Shown: in pieces, positions 8,101-37,810 of the stretch
Position numbering within the stretch: the stretch's first letter is position 1
Layout: each line of letters opens with the position of its first letter
Virus record (IMG/VR): IMGVR_UViG_3300042465_002754
Location: 1 to 37,810 of that record
DNA from: a virus
DNA length: 37,810 bases
Direction: 5' to 3' (one strand)
The notes under the pieces: generated by a model
What the model saw: the letters and a program-made list of their open reading frames with translations, nothing else
What the model was told of the DNA's origin: nothing
Databases searched by the model: none
Position numbers and translations under genes: made by a program

Positions 8101-8438
8101 TACTGCGTCACCTCGCGCCCGCTGGCGCGGATGTTAAGCGCAGCGGCCGTGCCGGCGATAGTGGAAATGAAGGCGCCAGGCGACAGCACTTGGCCCACGA
8201 TCTCGGGGAAGGTGTACGTCTCGTTTGCCTGGAGCGTCTTGGTGCGGACGATTAGGTTGTTGTTGCCGGGGGCGCCTGCGGCCGTGACGAGGTTGATGCT
8301 GATCGTCGCCGCCGAACCGCTGTAGTTGGTCGCCGTGAACTTGTCGATGATCGTCGTCACGCCGTTCGCCGTGTACTGCGTCGTCTGCGTGTTCTCGACG
8401 GTCTTGGCCGGGATCAGAACTACAACGGAGACAGCCAT
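8100..8438 (-). CDS. Small putative tail or virion structural protein, 112 aa
   Basis: Thr/Ala/Asn-rich, beta-looking protein without charged clusters, signal peptide or membrane span. The sequence alternates polar and hydrophobic residues (TVENTQTTQYTANGVTTIID, then ITISINLVTAAG-like strands), as in phage decoration or tail-collar proteins. It sits between the cupin gene and the gp13-like gene in the tail/ejection part of the late operon. Similar small proteins of unknown role occur in many podovirus late operons. Function not recognised. Confidence 0.7.
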   Translation of the reverse strand: MAVSVVVLIPAKTVENTQTTQYTANGVTTIIDKFTATNYSGSAATISINLVTAAGAPGNNNLIVRTKTLQANETYTFPEIVGQVLSPGAFISTIAGTAAALNIRASGREVTQ

Positions 8439-23436: not shown

Positions 23437-23878
23437 GGATCCGCTCCGGGTAGGGCTTGGCGTCCTCGGTCAGCGTGGGTGCGGGCTCTGCGACCCCCTC
23501 GATGACGCGGCGCTGCGCTTCTTGTAGCGCGTTCGTGATCGAGATCGTCTGGTTGACCTCGACCGTCACGGCCTGCTTCGCCACCCAGCCGTGGACGTGC
23601 TTCAGAATGTCCAGCGCCGCCTTGGCGTCGCCCTCGCGGGCGGCAGTGTGCAGCACGTTGGACATCTCCATCTCGCCGTCGGCGCGGCCCTTCTCCTCGG
23701 CCAGCGCCGCCAGCGGGTCAAACTCGCAGAGACTGCGGTACTCTGCGGGGCGCATTCCGGCGGCCAGCGCCAGCGTGTCTCCACGCAGGCCCTTGCGCGC
23801 CGCGTTGTAGATGGCCTCCAGCCGCGCTTCCGTCGCTTGCAGCCGCCGCGGCTCATACGGGAGGGAGAAGATGGTCAT
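23423..23878 (-). CDS. Terminase small subunit, 151 aa
   Basis: DNA-recognition partner of the large subunit. The N-terminal 25-75 region has helix-turn-helix style spacing (ARLEAIYNAARKGLRGDTLA, then LAAGMRPAEYRSLCEFDPLA), followed by a helical oligomerisation region (EMSNVLHTAAREGDAKAALD, about 75-94) and a C-terminal tail that would contact the large subunit. ATG at 23878; it is the first gene of the late operon, and a sigma-70-like promoter lies about 120 bases upstream at 24001-24028. Length and position are standard for this role. Confidence 0.87.
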   Translation of the reverse strand: MTIFSLPYEPRRLQATEARLEAIYNAARKGLRGDTLALAAGMRPAEYRSLCEFDPLAALAEEKGRADGEMEMSNVLHTAAREGDAKAALDILKHVHGWVAKQAVTVEVNQTISITNALQEAQRRVIEGVAEPAPTLTEDAKPYPERIRADG

Positions 23879-24000
23879 GCTCGCTTTGTATCATGTTGTG
23901 TGACGCGGGTGCAAAGGGCTTGCAAAAAATAAAAAATTGCTTGTGGCCCCTCCGGCCCTGGACCGGGCGGCCGGCGGGTCCCCTCCCCCCGGCTGCCTGC

Positions 24001-24028
24001 ATTATACAATCTATTACAGGCATTCCAA
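24001..24028 (-). promoter_or_regulatory. Candidate sigma-70 promoter for the late operon
   Basis: On the minus strand, TTGGAA (24028-24023) and a perfect TATAAT (24006-24001) are separated by 16 bases. It points into terS with a roughly 115-base leader that contains a GC-rich potential hairpin region near 23947-23995 and an A/T run at 23921-23938. Palindromic repeats at 24037-24091 lie just upstream, suggesting regulated use. Confidence 0.55.
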
Positions 24029-24036
24029 CGTCTGCA

Positions 24037-24091
24037 CATATGAACAGCTATTCATATGAACAGCTGTTCAAGTGTTCATGTGTACATATGA
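24037..24091. promoter_or_regulatory. Tandem palindromic operator-like sites (GAAC-N4-GTTC type)
   Basis: catatgaacagct occurs twice (24037-24049 and 24053-24065). It builds a perfect 14-bp palindrome tgaacagctgttca (24057-24070), a near-palindrome tgaacagctattca (24041-24054) and further half sites tgttcaagtgttca (24066-24079), with acatatg at 24084-24090. The core GAAC-AGCT-GTTC equals the GAAC-N4-GTTC pattern of Gram-positive LexA boxes; alphaproteobacterial LexA boxes differ (GTTC-N7-GTTC). The cluster lies 10-60 bases upstream of the late promoter, so a repressor or activator probably binds here. Confidence 0.6.
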
Positions 24092-24127
24092 CCAGGCATT
24101 GGATTGTATACGCCGCGGCCAGGCGCG

Positions 24128-24332
24128 TTGGGCGGTTTGGGCAGCGCGACGCAGGGTCGGGCCGAGGGATGGGCAGGATGGGCGGTTTGGGCAGTGCCCA
24201 AACATGTCGACGCGAGGCATTGGCATGTTGGGCGGTTTGGGCGACGCAGCGCGAGGTTGACGCTAGCAATGCGTGGGAGCTGACCGCGCCCGCCTAGCTG
24301 GAGAGGGTTTTGGGCAATTGGGCGGTTTGGGC
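24128..24332. repeat. Four direct iteron-like repeats, TTGGGCGGTTTGGGC, roughly 50-bp spaced
   Basis: Copies are at 24128-24142, 24179-24192 (first base differs), 24228-24242 and 24318-24332; repeat starts are 50, 50 and 90 bases apart. Three are followed by a gacgc element within 10 bases. Inverted partial copies lie beyond (aaaccgcccaaa at 24423-24434 and caaaccgcc at 24453-24461), and the half-site gcccaaac occurs at 24196-24203. No gene occupies 23879-24663. The array plus the adjacent AT-rich patch resembles an iteron-type origin or a multi-site regulator-binding region. Confidence 0.7.
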
Positions 24333-24358
24333 GACGCCCGGAAAATCCACCAGCCTTC

Positions 24359-24422
24359 ATCCCTATAATACACATGTTATAATATAACACTTATATCTAA
24401 ACATATTACCTACTACCTACCT
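24359..24422. other. AT-rich patch in GC-rich intergenic region, possible DNA-unwinding element or early promoter
   Basis: About 60 bases that are overwhelmingly A/T in an otherwise GC-rich genome. It contains TATAAT twice (24364-24369 and 24378-24383) and a dyad gttat-aat-ataac (24376-24388). It sits between the direct and inverted copies of the iteron-like repeat. It could be the melting element of an origin and/or carry -10 boxes for the rightward early operon; no convincing -35 was found. Confidence 0.5.
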
Positions 24423-24434
24423 AAACCGCCCAAA

Positions 24435-24663
24435 GCCGCGCCCGTTCCTAGGCAAACCGCCGCATCCCGCGCGATTACCACCGGCCAAGCTGGGTCGCCC
24501 AAAACACACACGTTTTCAGCCTTCACATTACCATCTGTCCACAAACAGATTCCGTTGCATTGCGACACGAGAAAAATATGCAGCTGGCGCTACATTTTCT
24601 GTTGCATCGGCTGCGAAGTGGCTTATACGCTTCTCTTGTCGCAACCGATTAGGAGCTGCACCA
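24435..24663. other. Non-coding upstream region of early operon
   Basis: No gene is supported here. It holds a weak inverted copy of the iteron motif (24453-24461), a gcccaaaa half-site near 24497, and an 11-base near-repeat ttccgttgcat (24550-24560) / ttctgttgcat (24597-24607), 47 bases apart. TTGCAT at 24602-24607 with TATACG at 24624-24629 (16-base spacer) is a weak promoter candidate. An AGGAGC ribosome-binding site precedes the first early gene. Confidence 0.4.
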
Positions 24664-27423: not shown

Positions 27424-27731
27424 TGCCGGTCCACGCTAGTGACTTCATCGCCCGGCGGCTGGAGATCGTCACGCAGGGCCGCCAACAGGGCCGGACGTGG
27501 GACCAGTTGGCCGAGGAGGTGGGGAACATCACCGCCAAGGGCTTGTCCGCTTGGTGGGCCAGCCGCACCCGCACCGCGCAGGCGCAAGCGCAATTCCGCG
27601 CCCGGCTGAAGCGTCCGCTGGACGTGAAGCCCAACACTACCCCGCGGGCTTGCCTGCGGTGCAACAAAACGTTTGACAGTGAGGGGGCACATAACCGACT
27701 GTGTGCCCCGTGCAGATACGCAACAACGTGA
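27423..27731 (+). CDS. Putative DNA-binding protein with HTH and C-terminal zinc ribbon, 102 aa
   Basis: The N-terminal half has helix-turn-helix style spacing: QQGRTWDQLAEEVGNITAKG at about 20-39, then LSAWWASRTRTAQAQAQFRA. The C-terminus holds CLRCNKTFDSEGAHNRLCAP followed by CRYATT, a C-x2-C...C-x2-C zinc ribbon (about 79-98) with a His in the loop. An early transcription or replication regulator is plausible. It precedes the MarR-type gene by 14 bases, so the two may form a regulatory pair. The ribbon pattern GAHNRLC is also seen in small phage zinc-finger proteins. Confidence 0.72.
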   Translation: MPVHASDFIARRLEIVTQGRQQGRTWDQLAEEVGNITAKGLSAWWASRTRTAQAQAQFRARLKRPLDVKPNTTPRACLRCNKTFDSEGAHNRLCAPCRYATT

Positions 27732-27745
27732 AGGGACAACACAAC

Positions 27746-28048
27746 ATGACCGACACCCTAACCATCCCGCCCGAGGCGCAGGCGTTCATTCTGGCCTCGC
27801 AGCCTGACGCCAACATGACCTGCCGCCAGATCGCCATCCTGGCCCTGGTGGCCGAGTACCCCGGCGAGAGCAACAAGATCATCGCGGAGACGCTGGGCGT
27901 GCCGAAGCCGGTGGTGACGCGATCCGCCGACAAACTGATCGAGCTGGGCCTGCTGAAGCGCCGCGTCTCCATGATGGACCGCCGCAAGGTCGAGATGACC
28001 GTCACACCCGCAGGCGCCCGACTGGTGCGCGAAATCGCCAGCGCGTGA
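27746..28048 (+). CDS. MarR-family winged helix transcriptional regulator, 100 aa
   Basis: Start ATG 27746 with GTGAAGGGACAACACAAC upstream. The domain spans nearly the whole protein: TCRQIAILALVAEYPGESNK (about 25-44), helix-turn-helix IIAETLGVPKPVVTRSADKL with recognition helix PVVTRSADKLIELG, and wing residues RRVSMMDRRKVEMTVTPAGA. It lacks the long terminal dimerisation helices of full-length MarR, so it is a short form. Candidate binder of the palindromic sites near 24.06 kb or 35.99 kb (inference only). Confidence 0.85.
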   Translation: MTDTLTIPPEAQAFILASQPDANMTCRQIAILALVAEYPGESNKIIAETLGVPKPVVTRSADKLIELGLLKRRVSMMDRRKVEMTVTPAGARLVREIASA

Positions 28049-28538: not shown

Positions 28539-28741
28539 TGCTGACGCAACTCAACCCGCCCCTGCCGCTGCTCACGCCGAAGGGAAAGGCGTGGGCGCAT
28601 CTGGTGATCGACTACGGGCCGGAGGCCGACCTCATGTGGGTCTGCTTCCAGGATGAGGACGGCGCGTGTTGGACCTGGTGCAACCGCGACGTTCGCATCC
28701 AGTCCAACGCGACGTTGGGCCGCGTCACCCCACGACCTTGA
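28538..28741 (+). CDS. Conserved small phage protein (LIDYGPE/WVCF type), 67 aa
   Basis: Starts MLTQLNPPLPLLTPKGKAWA, then HLVIDYGPEADLMWVCFQDE and DGACWTWCNRDVRIQSNATL. The pattern TPKGKA-x-AH-x-x-IDYGPE followed by a WVCF strand and a WT-x-x-N turn is recurrent among phage hypothetical proteins. A small, beta-rich barrel is likely. The last 17 bases overlap the convergent primase-helicase stop. It closes the early block; function unknown. Confidence 0.75.
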   Translation: MLTQLNPPLPLLTPKGKAWAHLVIDYGPEADLMWVCFQDEDGACWTWCNRDVRIQSNATLGRVTPRP

Positions 28742-31034
28742 GGTCCACGACCTTCGGCGCGCTGCCGTCCTCGACCATGCGCCGAAGGTCGCTCTTGCTA
28801 TACCGCTTGGCCACGTCCGGCGCCGCGAAGATGTGCTTCTTCGTCTGGTACTCCGACGACGCCACCCGCCCCACATCCACCCACCGGGCTTCCATGATCG
28901 CGTGCAGCAGCGCCGCCTGCGGCACCTTCACGCCGGGCGGCATCATCGCTGCCAGGCGATCGCAGAGCGCGTGGAACGGCCCGGCGACCACGCCCTTGGC
29001 GAACTCGCCCTGGCGCGTCCGCACCATGTCCACGATGCTGCTCTCGGCCATGCTCATGCTATGCTCGACCAGCGACGCCTTGACGTCCGTCATGGGCGGG
29101 GCGGCGCCAGGGTTGAACGCCGTCACGTTGCGGGCGTAGAGCCAGCGGGCGATAGCGGCGAAGCCACCCTCCTCCTTGTACCAACGCCAGATCGCCTGCG
29201 CTTCCTTCGGGTCCATGCGGCCCGCCGTGGACCAGATGACGAACCAGCGCCGGTCGTCGCTCGACAGCGTGATCGGGATCATGTCGTTCGAAAAGGCCAG
29301 GACGAACGCCCGGTTCAGCGTGTCGTAAGGGTGCAGGCCCTTGCGGTTCACCACTAGGTATTCCGGCGGGGCGGCGATGATCGGCTTCAGCCGGTTCGCC
29401 AGCGCCCGACGCTCCCGCGCCTCCGGCTCCTTCAGCTCGTTCAAAAGGATAATCTCGCTCTCCAGCGCGTAGCCCCACTGGCTGTTGATCGTGTCGCCGT
29501 CGATCAAGCCGCGGTTGACCAGCGTCGGGCCGCAGACCGCCCACATGAACGGCGCCCACATCGTGTCCTTGCCGCTGCCGCCGTGACCGCCGTGCAAAAC
29601 CGCGTGGTTGATCTTCACGCGCGGGTTCTGGACCTTGAACGCCATCACGTCCCAGATGTGGTCGAGATCCGCCGCATCCGGCACCAGCCGGCGGCAATGG
29701 TCGAGCCAGCGCGACACGTCGCCGCCAGGCGCCCCCCACACGTCCGGTCGGGCATCGACCCAGCGGTTGCCGTAGACCTCGCCGTTGCGCGACACCAGCA
29801 CGCTCTCGCCCGCAGCGTAGGTCACGCCCACCAGCACCCGTGCGCCCATCGCCTGCCGGTTCTCGTCGTAGCAGGTGCTGGCCTCGATCTTCTTGCCGCT
29901 GTGGATGGACCGGCAGGGGATGTGGCGGAACAGCGCGTTGAAGGCGTTGCGGCTGATCTCCCGCCGGTCCACCAGGTCGAAGTAGCAGTCATCCGAGAGG
30001 ACATAGGCGAAGCGTTCATACCAGCCCGCCTTCTCGACCCGGCCCAGCTCCTTGCGGTCCACCTCTGCGATGATCTCGGCCGCGCGGTCGGGGAAGTTCT
30101 CGGTCGGCGTCAGCTTGTCGAGGGTGCGCGACATCTGCTCCGCCAGCAATTCGTCCCGCAGGCCGTGGCCGGCGCGCGGGCCGCCCTGGTCGCAGACCCA
30201 CTTGAGGAAGGCGGCGCTGTCCAGATGCTCGCAATGGCCGTGGTAGCAGCAGAAGGCGCGGTTGAGAGGGTTATAGCGGGCCTCGTTCTGGCCGGTCGTG
30301 TGTTCCGCCGCGTTCGGGCAGACGACGCCCAGCCAGCCCTCTTGGTTGGTCGCCGACAGGACAAGGCCCTGCTCGTTCAGCCACTCCAGCACCGCGTCCT
30401 TACCCGTGTCGCGCAGACGGAAGACGCTCTGGGACGCCGTGTCAGCGGGCGCTGGCGTGACGCCCAGGGCCTCGCAGATCTGCGGGAGGGTGAACTCACG
30501 GTCAGGGTGGAACTCGACCAGGCGCGCCTTGAAGCCGTCGCGGCCGGGCTTGAGATTGACCGACCCTGGCAGTCGGAAGTTGCGGACGGCGTTGGTCGCG
30601 CCGGGGTCGGTGTAACCGGCAGCGGCGATGGCCGTCATGGCGGCTGTGAATTCGCCCTTCGTCGGCTGCTCCGTGAAGGCGTAGCCCCACTGGAAGGAGC
30701 CCTCGCTCGTCTCCATGACCCACGTCGGCGGCAAAGGCGGCGTCTTCGCCTTGGTCCCCACGTCGTCGAGCATCATCACCAGGACGTATTCGCAGTTGCC
30801 GGCGGATGCGGACGGCTGGCCGTCCTTGAAGCGGTCGATGATGAAGGATCCGGTGTTGGCGTACCACGCGCCGTCGGTGCGCTTCTTGGACGGCATGAAG
30901 GCAGGCCAAGTGTACTTCGGCGTGCCGTCAGCGTGCAGCGCCTGCTGGCCATCCCGCAGGACCGCCTTCTGGCGCACCACCAACAGTGTCTCGTTCTCGG
31001 GCGCGAGCCCTTGCAGGAACTCTACGAAGTCCAT
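28725..31034 (-). CDS. Primase-helicase: primase-like N-terminus fused to DUF5906/SF3-type helicase, 769 aa
   Basis: N-terminal 180 residues look like an archaeo-eukaryotic-type primase-polymerase: an acidic metal-site candidate MLDDVG and the conserved NFRLPGSVNLKPG (about 152-164). A Cys/His cluster VCPNAAEHTTG ... CCYHGHCEH (about 237-270) may bind zinc. The C-terminal helicase has a P-loop HGGHGGSGKDT (about 482-491) and LLNELKEP (about 530-537, Walker B-like), the pattern of DUF5906-type replication ATPases. Start ATG 31034 has AAGGGGGAAAAG upstream; an in-frame ATG at 31055 overlaps the polymerase stop. Likely the phage primase and replicative helicase; no TOPRIM domain was seen. Confidence 0.85.
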   Translation of the reverse strand: MDFVEFLQGLAPENETLLVVRQKAVLRDGQQALHADGTPKYTWPAFMPSKKRTDGAWYANTGSFIIDRFKDGQPSASAGNCEYVLVMMLDDVGTKAKTPPLPPTWVMETSEGSFQWGYAFTEQPTKGEFTAAMTAIAAAGYTDPGATNAVRNFRLPGSVNLKPGRDGFKARLVEFHPDREFTLPQICEALGVTPAPADTASQSVFRLRDTGKDAVLEWLNEQGLVLSATNQEGWLGVVCPNAAEHTTGQNEARYNPLNRAFCCYHGHCEHLDSAAFLKWVCDQGGPRAGHGLRDELLAEQMSRTLDKLTPTENFPDRAAEIIAEVDRKELGRVEKAGWYERFAYVLSDDCYFDLVDRREISRNAFNALFRHIPCRSIHSGKKIEASTCYDENRQAMGARVLVGVTYAAGESVLVSRNGEVYGNRWVDARPDVWGAPGGDVSRWLDHCRRLVPDAADLDHIWDVMAFKVQNPRVKINHAVLHGGHGGSGKDTMWAPFMWAVCGPTLVNRGLIDGDTINSQWGYALESEIILLNELKEPEARERRALANRLKPIIAAPPEYLVVNRKGLHPYDTLNRAFVLAFSNDMIPITLSSDDRRWFVIWSTAGRMDPKEAQAIWRWYKEEGGFAAIARWLYARNVTAFNPGAAPPMTDVKASLVEHSMSMAESSIVDMVRTRQGEFAKGVVAGPFHALCDRLAAMMPPGVKVPQAALLHAIMEARWVDVGRVASSEYQTKKHIFAAPDVAKRYSKSDLRRMVEDGSAPKVVDLKVVG

Positions 31035-31044
31035 CTTTTCCCCC

Positions 31045-33015
31045 TTACTTGCCATACCTGGTCATCACCGCAGCCTCGATGTTGAGCGGTATCCCTGCCG
31101 CCCAGGCTGGAGGTGAACACATGATGCGCTGCATGGCGGCCTGCGCCGCCTCTGGGTCGCTCGTCTCGACCACCACCTCGTCATGGACGTGCAGCACGAC
31201 GTCGTGACCCTCGGCCTCTAGCTGGCGCAGGGCATGGCGAAGCAGATCATGCGCGGTGGCCTGGGTCACGTTCTCGCACGCAAGCCCCTTCCAGAGCCGC
31301 GCGCGGGGCCACTCTTTCGCGTCCGCTGCGGGCTTCCAGGAGGCTTTCGCATAAGTGACGCCCTCGGCCTCAAGCCGCGCGAAGGGATAACAGAGGACGC
31401 GGCCGGAAGGCAGAGCATACCAAAGATGCTGGCCGTCGAACAAATAGGTGATGCGTCCGGCGGTAAACTCATGCCCGCGGTTCCGTATCGCCCGCGTGTA
31501 TGCCTCCTCCAGCCCCTGCCAGAACGGCACCGACCAGGAGTTCGCCCGCCGCCACGCATCCACCATCTTCCTGGCCTCGCTCTCGGGCAGGTTGATGCCG
31601 TAGATCCGGCCCATGGCCGCAAAGGCGCCGACGCCGCCAGCGAAGCCGCAGGCCAGCTCCTGCACCTTGCCGACTTGGCGCTGGTCCTTCGTGACCTCCT
31701 CGACGGTGGTGCGGAAGGTCGCGGCGGCGTTGACCTTGTAGACGTCCTCGCCGCGTTCGAAGATCCCCAGCTTCTCGGCGCCGCTGTTCGACTTCGACAG
31801 CCAGGGGTTCACCCGCGCCTCGATGGCTGACCAGTCAGCCGCGATCAGAACCTTGCCAGGGGCGGGCAGCAGCGCCGGGCGCAGCATCCCCTTCAGCACG
31901 TCCGTCACCCGCTTGCCGTAGGCCGGGACGATCTGGTGCCCTCGCACCATCGCCTGGCGCACGTCCTCCGGCGCGGCAGCGCACTTGCGGGGGAAGTTAT
32001 GGACCTGGGCGCCGTAGCTGGACGCGCGGCCGGTCGCAGCGCCGCCAGCGAAGACGAACGCGCCCCGCACCCGGCCGTCCTCGGCGTCGGCCAGTTCGGC
32101 CAGCCGGCTGAATTTTGCCACGCTGGAGGCCCACAGGTCGTCCGCGCATTGGATGACCTCGGCCACGTCAGCCGGCACCTCGTCGGGGTTCTCGGCGGCC
32201 AGGACCAGCAGGTTCGCCCGGACGTTCTTGTCGATCGACACCTTGGCTTCGCCGTCCTTGTGGACGACCATCAGCTTGCGGGCCTGCGGCCCGACCCGGT
32301 GTTCGACCCACGCCCGCATCTTGGGGCTGCGGACGCTGGTGATGGCGCCGCCTGTCACCTCGCGGACGGTCTGCTCGATCTCGACCAGTTCCTGGCCGGC
32401 GTAGCGCACGGCGGCCTGGCAGAGCGCCGTGTCCACCAGGACGCCCCGGTCGTTGATGCGCTCGTTGACGTGATAGTCCAGCAGTTCCTCGTCCGACAGG
32501 TCGCGCATCGCCTTGCTGACGGCGCGCATCGCACGGACATCGGTTTCGCAGTATTCGACCATCTCGGCCAGTAGCGCCGCGTCCTCGCGGAAGGTGCCGT
32601 CGGGGCGGGGGATGCACAGCGCGCGGATCAGTTGGGCGCCGCGGTGGTCCTTCTTCATGGACGCGCCAGCGAAGCGGCCCACGTCCTCCAGGCTGCCGGG
32701 GCCGCAGTTGGCGCGGGCCTGGGCGGCCGTGCAGTAGAACTGCTCCAGCGCGGGCTCCGGGAAACCTTGGTCGGGGGCTAGGACGTACCAGAAGATCATC
32801 CGCTCAAAGGCGGCGTTGTGGGCGCGGATCTGGCCCCGGTGATGCGCCACCCGGTCGGGGAAGGGCTGGCCGGGCATCCAAGTCTCGACCTCCCCGTCCC
32901 CGAAGGCGTAGGACATGCACAGCACCTGCGTGCTGGGATCCTGCGCGTAGTTGTACGCGCCCGCGCTCGTTAGGTCGCAGCGGCTGCGCGTCTCAAAATC
33001 AAGCCAGAGGATCAC
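31045..33015 (-). CDS. Family A DNA polymerase with 3'-5' exonuclease domain, 656 aa
   Basis: Replicates phage DNA. Exonuclease motifs: LDFETRS (residues 5-11, D6/E8), IRAHNAAFE (63-71) and EYCETDVRAM (154-163). Polymerase motif A is IAADWSAIEARV (391-402), motif B is TKDQRQVGKVQELACGFAGG (442-461) with the O-helix Arg446/Lys450, and motif C is LHVHDEVVVE (608-617) with H611-D612-E613. Length is typical for phage T7/pelagiphage-like polymerases. The start overlaps the methyltransferase stop (ATGA), and the primase-helicase follows in the same operon. No thioredoxin-binding loop is obvious. Confidence 0.95.
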   Translation of the reverse strand: MILWLDFETRSRCDLTSAGAYNYAQDPSTQVLCMSYAFGDGEVETWMPGQPFPDRVAHHRGQIRAHNAAFERMIFWYVLAPDQGFPEPALEQFYCTAAQARANCGPGSLEDVGRFAGASMKKDHRGAQLIRALCIPRPDGTFREDAALLAEMVEYCETDVRAMRAVSKAMRDLSDEELLDYHVNERINDRGVLVDTALCQAAVRYAGQELVEIEQTVREVTGGAITSVRSPKMRAWVEHRVGPQARKLMVVHKDGEAKVSIDKNVRANLLVLAAENPDEVPADVAEVIQCADDLWASSVAKFSRLAELADAEDGRVRGAFVFAGGAATGRASSYGAQVHNFPRKCAAAPEDVRQAMVRGHQIVPAYGKRVTDVLKGMLRPALLPAPGKVLIAADWSAIEARVNPWLSKSNSGAEKLGIFERGEDVYKVNAAATFRTTVEEVTKDQRQVGKVQELACGFAGGVGAFAAMGRIYGINLPESEARKMVDAWRRANSWSVPFWQGLEEAYTRAIRNRGHEFTAGRITYLFDGQHLWYALPSGRVLCYPFARLEAEGVTYAKASWKPAADAKEWPRARLWKGLACENVTQATAHDLLRHALRQLEAEGHDVVLHVHDEVVVETSDPEAAQAAMQRIMCSPPAWAAGIPLNIEAAVMTRYGK

Positions 33016-34097
33016 GGCTGGCAGTCCATCACGGCTGCGATGAACTCTGCGGCGAGCGGCGCGACAATCGCGTTGCCGTAGGCGCGCAGGCGTCCCACGC
33101 GGGCGGGAGCCCCATGAGCCAGCGGGAATGTGCCGGGTTCAACTGGCCGCCACTTTCCATCCCGGCACAGGAGCCAGTCAGCATCTCGCCAGAAGCCGTG
33201 AAGCGGGCCGGGCCGCCCGATGCCTCCGGGATCGTCCTGGCAATCTGGTCCAGACCCATCTCGCTCTTTCGATCCCCGCCCCGCGAGCGAAAGCTGTCCG
33301 TCTGCGGCGTCGGCCATCCCGTCAGCACCGCCATCTCGTTCAGCGGTCGGGCGTTGTGCGTGTACTCGTTCCCAGGGTTCAGCGCCCCCTTGTAATCCCT
33401 CGCCGCTGGCGTCGGCCACCCCGCCAGATGCGTCGCCACCGCCGTCAGCGTGTCGGCCTTCCCGCGCCCCCAGCGCATCCCGCTGCTCTCGCCGTCCTCC
33501 AGGCGCGGCGTCGGCCAGCCCGCCATCGTTGCGGTCGTCCGCAGATCCATCCCGCCGTCCCCGTGCAGACCCGCGCCATTCGTGTCGCTGGTCCGCGGCG
33601 TCGGCCACCCACCACAGCCGCTGGCGGATGTGCGGAGCGCCGACGCTCGCCGCGCCAAGATCGGCCGCCCCGACTGCATATCCCACGCCTTCCAGGTCAG
33701 CCCGAACAGCGTCGAGCCAGTCTCGGCCAAGCGCGCTCGCAACCTGCTCTCCAAGGACGACTGGAGGCTGGCACTCCGCGATGAGGCGGTGGAACTCTGG
33801 CCACAGGTGCCGCTCGTCGGCGGTGCCGAGCCCTCGGCCGGCGGCGCTGAAGGGCTGGCAGGGGCAGGATCCGGTCCAGACGGGGCGGCTGTCGTCCCAG
33901 CCAGCGGAGCGCAGGGCGTGGGACCAGACGCCGATACCGGCGAAGAAATGGGCCTGAGTAAACCCTGCGACGTCTGCCGCAGCCACGTCCCGAATAGACC
34001 GCTCATCCACAACTCCATCTGCGATGTGGCCAGCCGCAATGAGGTTGCGAAGCCATTGGGCCGCGAAGGGCTCGATCTCGTTGTAATACGCTGCCAT
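33012..34097 (-). CDS. DNA (cytosine-5) methyltransferase, phage Dcm-like, 361 aa
   Basis: Transfers a methyl group from S-adenosylmethionine to cytosine in DNA, probably protecting phage DNA from restriction. Motif I is [12 protein letters not shown] (51-62), motif [13 protein letters not shown] (77-87) with catalytic Cys80, motif VI is the common phage variant GEQVAS (116-121) instead of ENV, motif [16 protein letters not shown] (about 155-166) and motif [11 protein letters not shown] (about 338-347). Between motifs VIII and X lies an unusual Gly/Asp/Ala/Arg-rich target region with four ADA repeats. ATG 34097 begins [17 protein letters not shown], the typical family start. A long second frame is open through the same DNA. 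Confidence 0.9.
33029..34018 (-). other. Alternative-frame ORF (329 aa) inside the methyltransferase gene, with WPTP repeats
   Basis: On the same strand but shifted frame, an open reading frame spans nearly the whole methyltransferase gene (ATG 34018 or 34006). It reads [31 protein letters not shown] and four GWPTP units, ending [20 protein letters not shown]. From general knowledge, phage hypothetical proteins with LTWK-x-SGR, WPTP and RWLMGLPP-x-W patterns recur at dcm loci, so this may be conserved overlapping coding or a shared dual-frame artefact of GC-rich DNA. It is reported as open; translation is not shown. Confidence 0.35.
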
Positions 34098-36034: not shown

Positions 36035-36319
36035 ATGCGCGAGAGCGAGATTGAACGCCATCTGGTCTGGCACGTCACCCGGCTGGGCGGCGTTGCCTAC
36101 AAGTTTCGGTCGGTCACCCACCGCGGCGTGGCCGACCGGATCGTCTGCCTGCCAGATGGCAGCACACATTTCGTCGAACTGAAGACGAAGGGCGGCCGGC
36201 TGTCGCCACTCCAGAAGCTGTTCGCGCAGGAGATGGAACGCATGGGGCAGCGGTACGCTTGCCTCTGGACGAAGGAGCAGGTGGATGCCTGGGCTAAAGA
36301 TACGGCCGGTGTCGCTTAA
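36035..36319 (+). CDS. VRR-NUC domain nuclease, 94 aa
   Basis: Structure-selective PD-(D/E)XK nuclease, a Holliday-junction or flap resolvase type. MRESEIERHLVWHVTRLGGV (1-20) is followed by KFRSVTHRGVADRIVCLPDG with the metal Asp, and HFVELKTKGGRLSPLQKLFA carrying the E-x-K pair (about residues 48-50). The length is typical of stand-alone phage VRR-NUC proteins. ATG 36035 is chosen over ATG 36014 because family members begin MRESEI. First gene of the rightward recombination operon; it overlaps the GNAT-like gene by 35 bases. Confidence 0.88.
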   Translation: MRESEIERHLVWHVTRLGGVAYKFRSVTHRGVADRIVCLPDGSTHFVELKTKGGRLSPLQKLFAQEMERMGQRYACLWTKEQVDAWAKDTAGVA

Positions 36320-36740
36320 GATCGCGCAAGAGTATGTGCGCGATTACCACCGGCACAACAAACCTCCGGTCGGACACAAGTTCTCAATCGGCCTCTACGA
36401 CAGCGACCGTCTCGTTGGTGTCGCCACGGCTGGGCGACCCGTGGCCCGTATGTTGGACGACGGGTTGACGCTGGAGGTTACGCGCACATGCACCGACGGG
36501 ACGCGCAACGCCAACTCCATGCTCTACGGCGCCATCGTCCGCGCTGCGACCGCGCTAGGGTACGCGCGCTGCGTAACCTACACGCAGCACGACGAGTCCG
36601 GGGCGTCTCTGCGAGGAGCGGGCTGGACGCCGGCGCAGGCGCTGCCGGCGCGGGCAGGCTGGACGGCGCCCAGCCGACCGCGTGAGGACATCGGATCTGG
36701 CGGCGTCGCCCGCATCCGGTGGGAGCGGAAGTGTGCTTAA
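36285..36740 (+). CDS. GNAT-like protein of XF1762 type, 151 aa
   Basis: ATG with GAAGGAGCAGGTGG upstream. A GNAT-type fold is suggested by FSIGLYDSDRLVGVATAGRP (about 33-52), VTRTCTDGTRNANSMLYGAI (about 65-84) and YARCVTYTQHDESGASLRGA (about 93-112), then GWTPAQALPARAGWTAPSR. This pattern matches a widespread phage/plasmid protein annotated as XF1762-like; the substrate is unknown. It is tightly coupled, overlapping the VRR-NUC gene (35 bases) and the helicase start (8 bases). The basic end RIRWERKCA is conserved in style. Confidence 0.75.
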   Translation: MPGLKIRPVSLKIAQEYVRDYHRHNKPPVGHKFSIGLYDSDRLVGVATAGRPVARMLDDGLTLEVTRTCTDGTRNANSMLYGAIVRAATALGYARCVTYTQHDESGASLRGAGWTPAQALPARAGWTAPSRPREDIGSGGVARIRWERKCA

Positions 36741-37810
36741 TCTCCGCCCCTACCAGGATGATGCGGCCGACTTCCTCTACGAGCATGACCGGGGGATGAT
36801 CCTGGCGCCCGTGGGGGCCGGCAAGACGGCGATCACCCTGACGGCCATGGCGGCGATGGTGGCCGATGGCCACGTCAAGCGGTGGCTGGTGCTGGCGCCG
36901 AAGCGCGTCTGCACCGACGTCTGGCCGGTCGAGGGGCCGAAGTGGGCGCCGGGGCTGACGATGGCGGTTGCCGTCGGCACGCCCCGCCAGCGGGCTGCGG
37001 CGTTCGCGTCGGACGCTCGCGTCGTCGTCACCAACTACGACAACCTCCAGACCGCGCCGCCGGATCTCAGCAGCTTCGACGGCATCGTCTTCGACGAACT
37101 GACCCGGCTGAAGAACCCGTCGGGGAAGCGGTTCAAGGCGCTGGAGAAGCACATCGAGCCGTTCAACGTGCGCTGGGGCCTGACCGGTTCCTTCACGTCG
37201 AACGGCCTAGAGGACGTCTTCGGGCAATGCAAGATCGTGGAGCAGGCGCTGCTGGGCCGGTCGAAGGGCGCCTTCCTCCAGAAGTACTTCGTCTGCATGA
37301 ACCGCGAGTACGGCGAGTGGATGCCGCGCAAGGGTGCCCTGGGCGCCGTTATGGACGCCATCCGCCCGGCCACCTACGTCCTGGAGCCCGGCGAGTACAA
37401 GGACCGCCTGCCGCCGCTGCACACGGTCGAGATGCGCTGCGACCTAGCTGACCGGGCGCCCTACGAGAAGATGAAGAAGGACTACCTCGTCGAACTGAAG
37501 GGCCAGCAGATCACGGCCCTGACGGCGGCGTCCGTCACCAGCAAACTCCAGCAGATGGCCAGCGGGTTCATCTACAATAGCCAGACCGTAGCGCAGGAAA
37601 CGGCGGGCAAGTTTACGCAAGCCAAGGAGGCGGTCTGGTTTTCGCCGCACAAGTTCGACCTGCTGGACGAGATCCTGGCCGAAAACCAGCGGGACAACAC
37701 CATCGTGGTCTACAACTACCGCGAGGAGCTGGCCGAACTCCGACGCCGCTACCCCCACGCCGCGACCGTGGACGAGCCCGACGCCATCGCCCGGTGGAAC
37801 GCCGGCAAGA
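36733..37810 (+). CDS. SNF2/DEAD-like helicase, N-terminal part (continues at 1-399)
   Basis: Residues 1-359 of the 449-aa helicase. GTG start at 36733, preceded by GGGAGCGGAA and overlapping the previous stop. LRPYQDDAADFLYEHDRGMI (Q motif), Walker A APVGAGKTAI (25-34), motif Ia LVLAPKRV, motif II FDEL (120-123), and motif III-like WGLTGSFTSNG (about 153-163). The second RecA domain begins near NTIVVYNYREE (about 322-332). Compact phage helicases of this type are typically SNF2-like and work in replication or recombination; here it follows a VRR-NUC nuclease, suggesting joint work on branched DNA. The frame is complete only when the ends are joined. Confidence 0.9.
   Translation, partial: MLNLRPYQDDAADFLYEHDRGMILAPVGAGKTAITLTAMAAMVADGHVKRWLVLAPKRVCTDVWPVEGPKWAPGLTMAVAVGTPRQRAAAFASDARVVVTNYDNLQTAPPDLSSFDGIVFDELTRLKNPSGKRFKALEKHIEPFNVRWGLTGSFTSNGLEDVFGQCKIVEQALLGRSKGAFLQKYFVCMNREYGEWMPRKGALGAVMDAIRPATYVLEPGEYKDRLPPLHTVEMRCDLADRAPYEKMKKDYLVELKGQQITALTAASVTSKLQQMASGFIYNSQTVAQETAGKFTQAKEAVWFSPHKFDLLDEILAENQRDNTIVVYNYREELAELRRRYPHAATVDEPDAIARWNAGK
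37684..37810. repeat. Right copy of 127-bp terminal direct repeat (contig closure overlap)
   Basis: Identical to bases 1-127; see the left copy. Removing one copy gives a 37,683-bp circle and restores the helicase gene. Confidence 0.9.

Follow-up and report, generated by a model that had tools for sequence, protein, structure and literature searches.

The window, by which we mean the whole stretch of 37,810 nucleotides analysed here, begins and ends with the same 127 bases (1-127 and 37684-37810), and because its ends overlap in this way the record closes into a circle, with the helicase gene spanning the join. We take it to be a circular genome of 37,683 bp that is probably complete. It encodes a portal and a coat protein of the P22 type, a large terminase, a family A DNA polymerase and a primase-helicase, and is the genome of a podovirus with a P22-type head (GC content 64.6%). 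The late genes are oriented leftward, the small terminase gene (TerS, start at 23878) being the last of them, and small early genes run rightward from 24664; only mechanical ORFs occur between these two points. The repeat array studied here sits in this interval, about 250 bp from the start of TerS, and so does lie between divergent operons, as the first-pass annotation had stated. The same genome carries genes for a DNA methyltransferase and a Mom-like DNA modification protein (33012-34097 and 36285-36740), which suggests that the phage DNA is modified.

The array had been described as four direct copies of a 15-bp repeat, spaced 50, 50 and 90 bases, next to a 60-bp AT-rich patch and followed by inverted partial copies, and this description holds. 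Three copies are exact (TTGGGCGGTTTGGGC at 24128, 24228 and 24318) and one, ATGGGCGGTTTGGGC at 24178, has a single mismatch. With up to three mismatches allowed, the window contains 8 matches against 1.97 expected, a number reached in none of 100 shuffles, and the four non-overlapping copies of the intergenic stretch compare with a maximum of two in 60 dinucleotide shuffles. The 15-mer itself resolves into two overlapping copies of a 9-bp unit, TTTGGGC(A/G)G, mostly arranged as tandem pairs: its core TTGGGC occurs eight times in direct orientation (24128, 24137, 24187, 24228, 24237, 24310, 24318 and 24327) and three times inverted in the intergenic stretch (Table 1). The AT-rich patch has 23% GC and is the lowest-GC 60-mer of the genome, and the inverted partial copies are found on its far side, one of them at 24419-24433. 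The GC-skew switch that the annotation had proposed to look for is absent, the skew across the window having neither a switch nor an extremum at the array; the third-position skew of the leftward genes (-0.086 on one side, -0.043 on the other) is uninformative.

Table 1. Positions of the repeat units, of the AT-rich patch and of the replication genes in the window
Feature	Position	Strand	Remarks
Iteron cluster 1	24128..24142	+	two units TTGGGCGGT TTGGGC, 9-bp-spaced
Iteron cluster 2	24178..24202	+	ATGGGCGG TTTGGGC AGT, then inverted unit GCCCAAA (24196-24202)
Iteron cluster 3	24228..24242	+	TTGGGCGGTTTGGGC
Iteron cluster 4, adjoining the AT-rich patch	24309..24332	+	TTTGGGCAATTGGGCGGTTTGGGC, three units
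AT-rich patch, presumed DNA-unwinding element	24364..24423	.	kept in relatives; near-identical in L256
Inverted iteron pair, far side of the patch	24419..24434	-	ACCTAAACCGCCCAAA; inverted set kept in relatives
Outer inverted unit	24497..24503	-	GCCCAAA
Primase-helicase, 776 aa, presumed initiator	28725..31055	-	weak RepB-type primase match at the N-terminus, DUF5906 SF3-type helicase, C-terminal winged-helix-like domain
C-terminal domain, residues 656-776, co-varying with iteron letters	28728..29090	-	
Strand 2 and wing, residues 728-737, strongest co-varying positions	28845..28874	-	residue 734 at 28854-28856
Family A DNA polymerase, presumed extension from the opened origin	31045..33015	-	no co-variation with letters

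Two other elements lie between TerS and the array. The leader upstream of TerS (23879-24022), which includes the C-rich tract CCCCTCCCCCC, is the best conserved intergenic DNA among the relatives and is possibly a terminator, a leader or a packaging signal. The interval between this leader and the iterons (24033-24106) holds overlapping palindromes, CATATGAACAGCT(A/G)TTCATATG and related copies, which also occur in L258, L259 and L265 and are absent from the close relative L256; they look like the operator of a separate regulator.

When the intergenic region was compared with the phage collection at the DNA level, no match was obtained; relatives (IMG/VR contigs among them) were collected by two family searches that yielded about 160 loci. 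Absence of the repeats from relatives with the same replication genes, which had been named as refuting the origin, applies to the exact letters but not to the array: the layout is conserved, the exact letters almost never are. In none of these first 160 or so loci do the letters of the window's iteron occur in two or more copies (the first relative to carry them, L256, was found among the later held-out loci), but direct units, an AT-rich gap and inverted units stand at the same gene position in 124 related loci, these being the ones with a clear motif call. Between the last direct unit and the first inverted one there is a gap with a median of 105 bp (interquartile range 99-111), which measures 80-125 bp in 98 of the 124; tandem units lie 8-10 bp apart in 105 of them, and 9 bp dominates the pooled spacings. 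A few loci lack a clear motif, and some arrays are unclear.

The letters differ from phage to phage (the unit is TTTGGGCAG in the window, TTTCGGCAG in L016 and TGTGGACAA in L066), and the copies agree within each phage. At the same intergenic place there are TTCGGC units in L014, L084, L085 and L086 and TAGGTCA units in L090 to L092, and automated calling recovered more letter types: TTGGGTCA, TGTGGACAA, TGTGGGCAA, TGTG(G/A)GTCA, TTTAGGCTA, AATTGTCAA and others. Because all copies within a phage share their letters, we think that these are imposed by a reader acting in trans. Some loci carry repeats of another sort. In L097, L102 and L105 the interval between TerS leader and iterons is occupied by long simple tandem arrays (TGGTGTGGTGC, GGGCAGGGCAG), and L163 (MW202483.1), whose primase is 55% identical, has palindromic TGTAAACA repeats near TerS (about 8230-8430 of the locus) that are possibly a different iteron type. 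By eye, no comparable array was seen in Rhodoferax phage P26218, whose annotated RepA is unlike this primase-helicase, nor adjoining TerS in DSL-LC05.

Which protein might be this reader? A phage repressor or early regulator, with the array as its operator region, would suit the position between divergent transcription units; the early gene block does contain a MarR-type gene (27701-28048), and the separate palindromes at 24033-24106 look operator-like. The MarR gene, however, occurs in only 4 of the fetched loci, so that a known reader common to all the phages is lacking, and the window and L016, which differ in their iteron letters, share it at 98% identity. An AT-rich patch bracketed by opposed sets of units is moreover typical of origins, and the letters track another protein, the C-terminus of the primase-helicase, as described below. 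We thus consider the operator hypothesis very improbable.

The primase-helicase matches DUF5906 with 35.7 bits (cut-off 27.6) and the PHROG DNA primase family at 8.5e-14, and its RepB_primase score of 20.7 is below the cut-off of 24.3 and thus weak. Its C-terminus is predicted to be a winged-helix-like domain. In the model of the last 146 residues (pLDDT 81-92), helices at 64-74 and 83-92 are followed by a strand at 96-101, a loop and a second strand at 110-114. Comparison with PDB structures gave extended winged helices (Z 6.2), PadR (4.8) and the replication terminator protein RTP (4.7), all middling, and Foldseek returned nothing at E <= 0.001 for this domain, so that it is the succession of predicted elements that supports the winged-helix assignment. 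A profile of the domain found chance matches only among PDB sequences. The sole solved structures with a sequence match to the protein are those of the primase-polymerase/helicase of phage NrS-1 (residues 522-608, E about 3e-4); this match is confined to the helicase core, and the presumed origin-reading domain lies outside it.

We compared pairs of phages with a primase-core distance under 0.15, sharing or not sharing iteron letters (the iteron types being assigned partly by hand). Over the C-terminal segment 656-760 of the primase, same-letter pairs are 0.069 apart and different-letter pairs 0.189, whereas there is no effect for TerS (0.089 and 0.090), TerL (0.049 and 0.050), the polymerase (0.066 and 0.067) or primase residues 1-80 (0.096 and 0.096). 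Once covariates are included, the primase C-terminus has a standardized residual difference of 1.01 (permutation p 0.0005), against -0.14 for TerS (permutation p 0.84) and -0.35 for the polymerase. These figures bear on the hypothesis that the array is a packaging (pac) site recognised by the small terminase. The array does adjoin the TerS gene, and repeats occur in some phage pac sites, but such a site should make TerS track the letters, which it does not, and would have no need for an AT-rich patch between inverted sets. A pac function therefore strikes us as very improbable.

Some association with the letters is also seen for the helicase segment 441-655 (standardized residual difference 0.55) and for segment 241-440 (0.62). 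Permutation of labels leaves some shared ancestry, and we therefore turned to individual residues and to a tree. The strongest contrast between letter types, with hardly any variation inside a type, is found in a cluster of positions at 728-737, to which 769 has to be added; 728, 731, 732, 734, 735 and 737 are among the top positions. As the loop of the model corresponds to residues 732-739 of the full protein, this cluster coincides with the predicted strand 2 and wing. The association is concentrated at 721-760 (mean delta 0.26 and 0.17) and drops to 0.04 to 0.08 at 661-720.

Within the cluster, a rule can be stated for residue 734. In the discovery set, a TGT-type iteron (TGTNG) is present in 28 of 28 phages with Arg734 and in none of 26 without it. 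On a tree of primase residues 81-440, Arg734 and the TGT type each change nine times, and the independent pairs on supported branches agree in six cases out of six (sign test p 0.031, the minimum attainable with six pairs). As these first counts come from the data that suggested the rule, three further queries were used to obtain new loci; 74 remained after dropping those with an array known from the first set, and the rule was fixed beforehand and the calls made automatically. The TGT type was called in 20 of 20 held-out loci with Arg734 and in none of 42 without it, 12 of the 74 being uncalled; the p-value of 1e-16 overstates independence, since many of these loci are close to each other. 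L256 has a wing loop identical to that of the window, and carries the window's iteron and a near-identical patch. Three other phages, L059, L055 and L069, have primase cores only 4-5% apart, yet three iteron types and different wings; judged from their sequences, this is a recent natural switch of specificity.

One could still argue that the letters and the primase C-terminus were swapped together by recombination, as linked DNA and without direct recognition. One variable gene block is indeed flanked by the array on one side and by the part of the primase gene encoding the C-terminus on the other, and the association of residues 241-655 with the letters would fit such an exchange. It would not lead one to expect an association concentrated at 721-760 and not at 661-720, nor the comparison of the window with L016, in which several intervening genes are 80-98% identical and both ends differ, nor a rule for Arg734 that is obeyed by deeply diverged phages and by the held-out loci alike. 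We therefore leave only a slim chance to linked exchange.

The candidate replication origin proposed from the repeats and the patch is therefore the best supported reading, with the layout kept in 124 loci and letters that change along with the part of the primase-helicase predicted to bind DNA. In our view this phage very probably starts its replication at 24128-24503, where the 9-bp units would be recognised by the winged-helix C-terminus of the primase-helicase, above all by its wing, and the protein would load from both sides, melt the DNA and prime. Against this have to be counted the missing GC-skew switch, the middling fold matches of the C-terminal domain, the loci without a clear motif or call, the 4.2 kb that separate the presumed initiator gene from the array and, again, the association of residues 241-655.

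The known systems to which the array may be compared are several. In PICI origins, two iteron sets always flank an AT-rich region (PMC6092414), and so they do in the window and the 124 loci. The initiator of PICIs and SaPIs is a helicase, sometimes fused to a primase, and the C-terminal domain of the SaPI Rep acts on the iterons (PMC7581432). The protein of the window likewise combines primase and SF3/AAA-type helicase parts (the primase part being weak), and its C-terminus, which co-varies strongly with the letters, is the candidate reader of the iterons. Unlike the PICI/SaPI Pri-Rep-ori, the candidate origin is not directly downstream of its presumed initiator (the gene ends at 28725, with the array at 24128-24503), and we deal here with a whole phage that encodes a family A polymerase and has no satellite life cycle.

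A second system is P4, whose alpha protein unites primase and helicase parts and reads the origin. The 8-bp type 1 repeats of P4 also occur in both orientations, several of them 9-11 bp apart, but the window has no second array comparable to crr. Kinship with alpha was not detected (best BLASTP E 2.1; C-terminal profile probability 0.1, with P4 represented by one sequence only). The array differs from a lambda-type origin, which has its iterons inside the initiator gene, in being intergenic. In Vibrio cholerae, initiator-specific iterons of PLE diversify under attack by an origin-directed nuclease (PMC8263062); the PLE RepA differs from the present protein in being a RepA_N initiator without primase or helicase activity, of a different family. 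A literature search, with subscription papers outside its range, found no description of origins in this phage family.

The array may thus work like the PICI/SaPI and P4 origins, and by this analogy we infer the following scenario. The C-terminal winged-helix domain would bind the 9-bp units, mainly through wing residues 728-737; with one set of units on either side of the AT-rich patch, pointing towards each other, two helicase assemblies would load from opposite sides, each on one of the opposed sets. The self-loading primase-helicase would then melt the patch between them, prime, and hand over to the family A polymerase of the phage, so that replication would start bidirectionally at the array.

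The unusual feature is that matched pairs of initiator and site occur here as a natural series. Coexistence of replicons, and the ability of parasites to hijack them, depend on the specificity of an initiator for its origin. In this family nature supplies more than 100 such pairs on a single protein scaffold; specificity has changed at least nine times, and even phages that are nearly identical (L059, L055 and L069) can differ in their letters. The joint change of the repeat letters and of a small patch of the primase-helicase in about 120 related phages suggests how an initiator and its DNA target may change together, and the natural pairs allow the joint change of an initiator and many site copies to be tested. 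The series also offers a way in which origins of uncultivated phages may be located and typed by sequence alone.

One may go further and suppose that single wing residues set single bases of the iteron, Arg734 specifying G at position 2 and Asp/Glu732 specifying C at position 4 (an acidic residue 732 goes with C at unit position 4 in L014, L016, L259, L262 and L267), and that the phages thereby fall into mutually incompatible specificity groups between which they switch repeatedly. We put this forward tentatively, as an idea that is on balance rather doubtful; if it were true, repeated switching would possibly allow these phages to escape satellites, rival phages and origin-directed nucleases.
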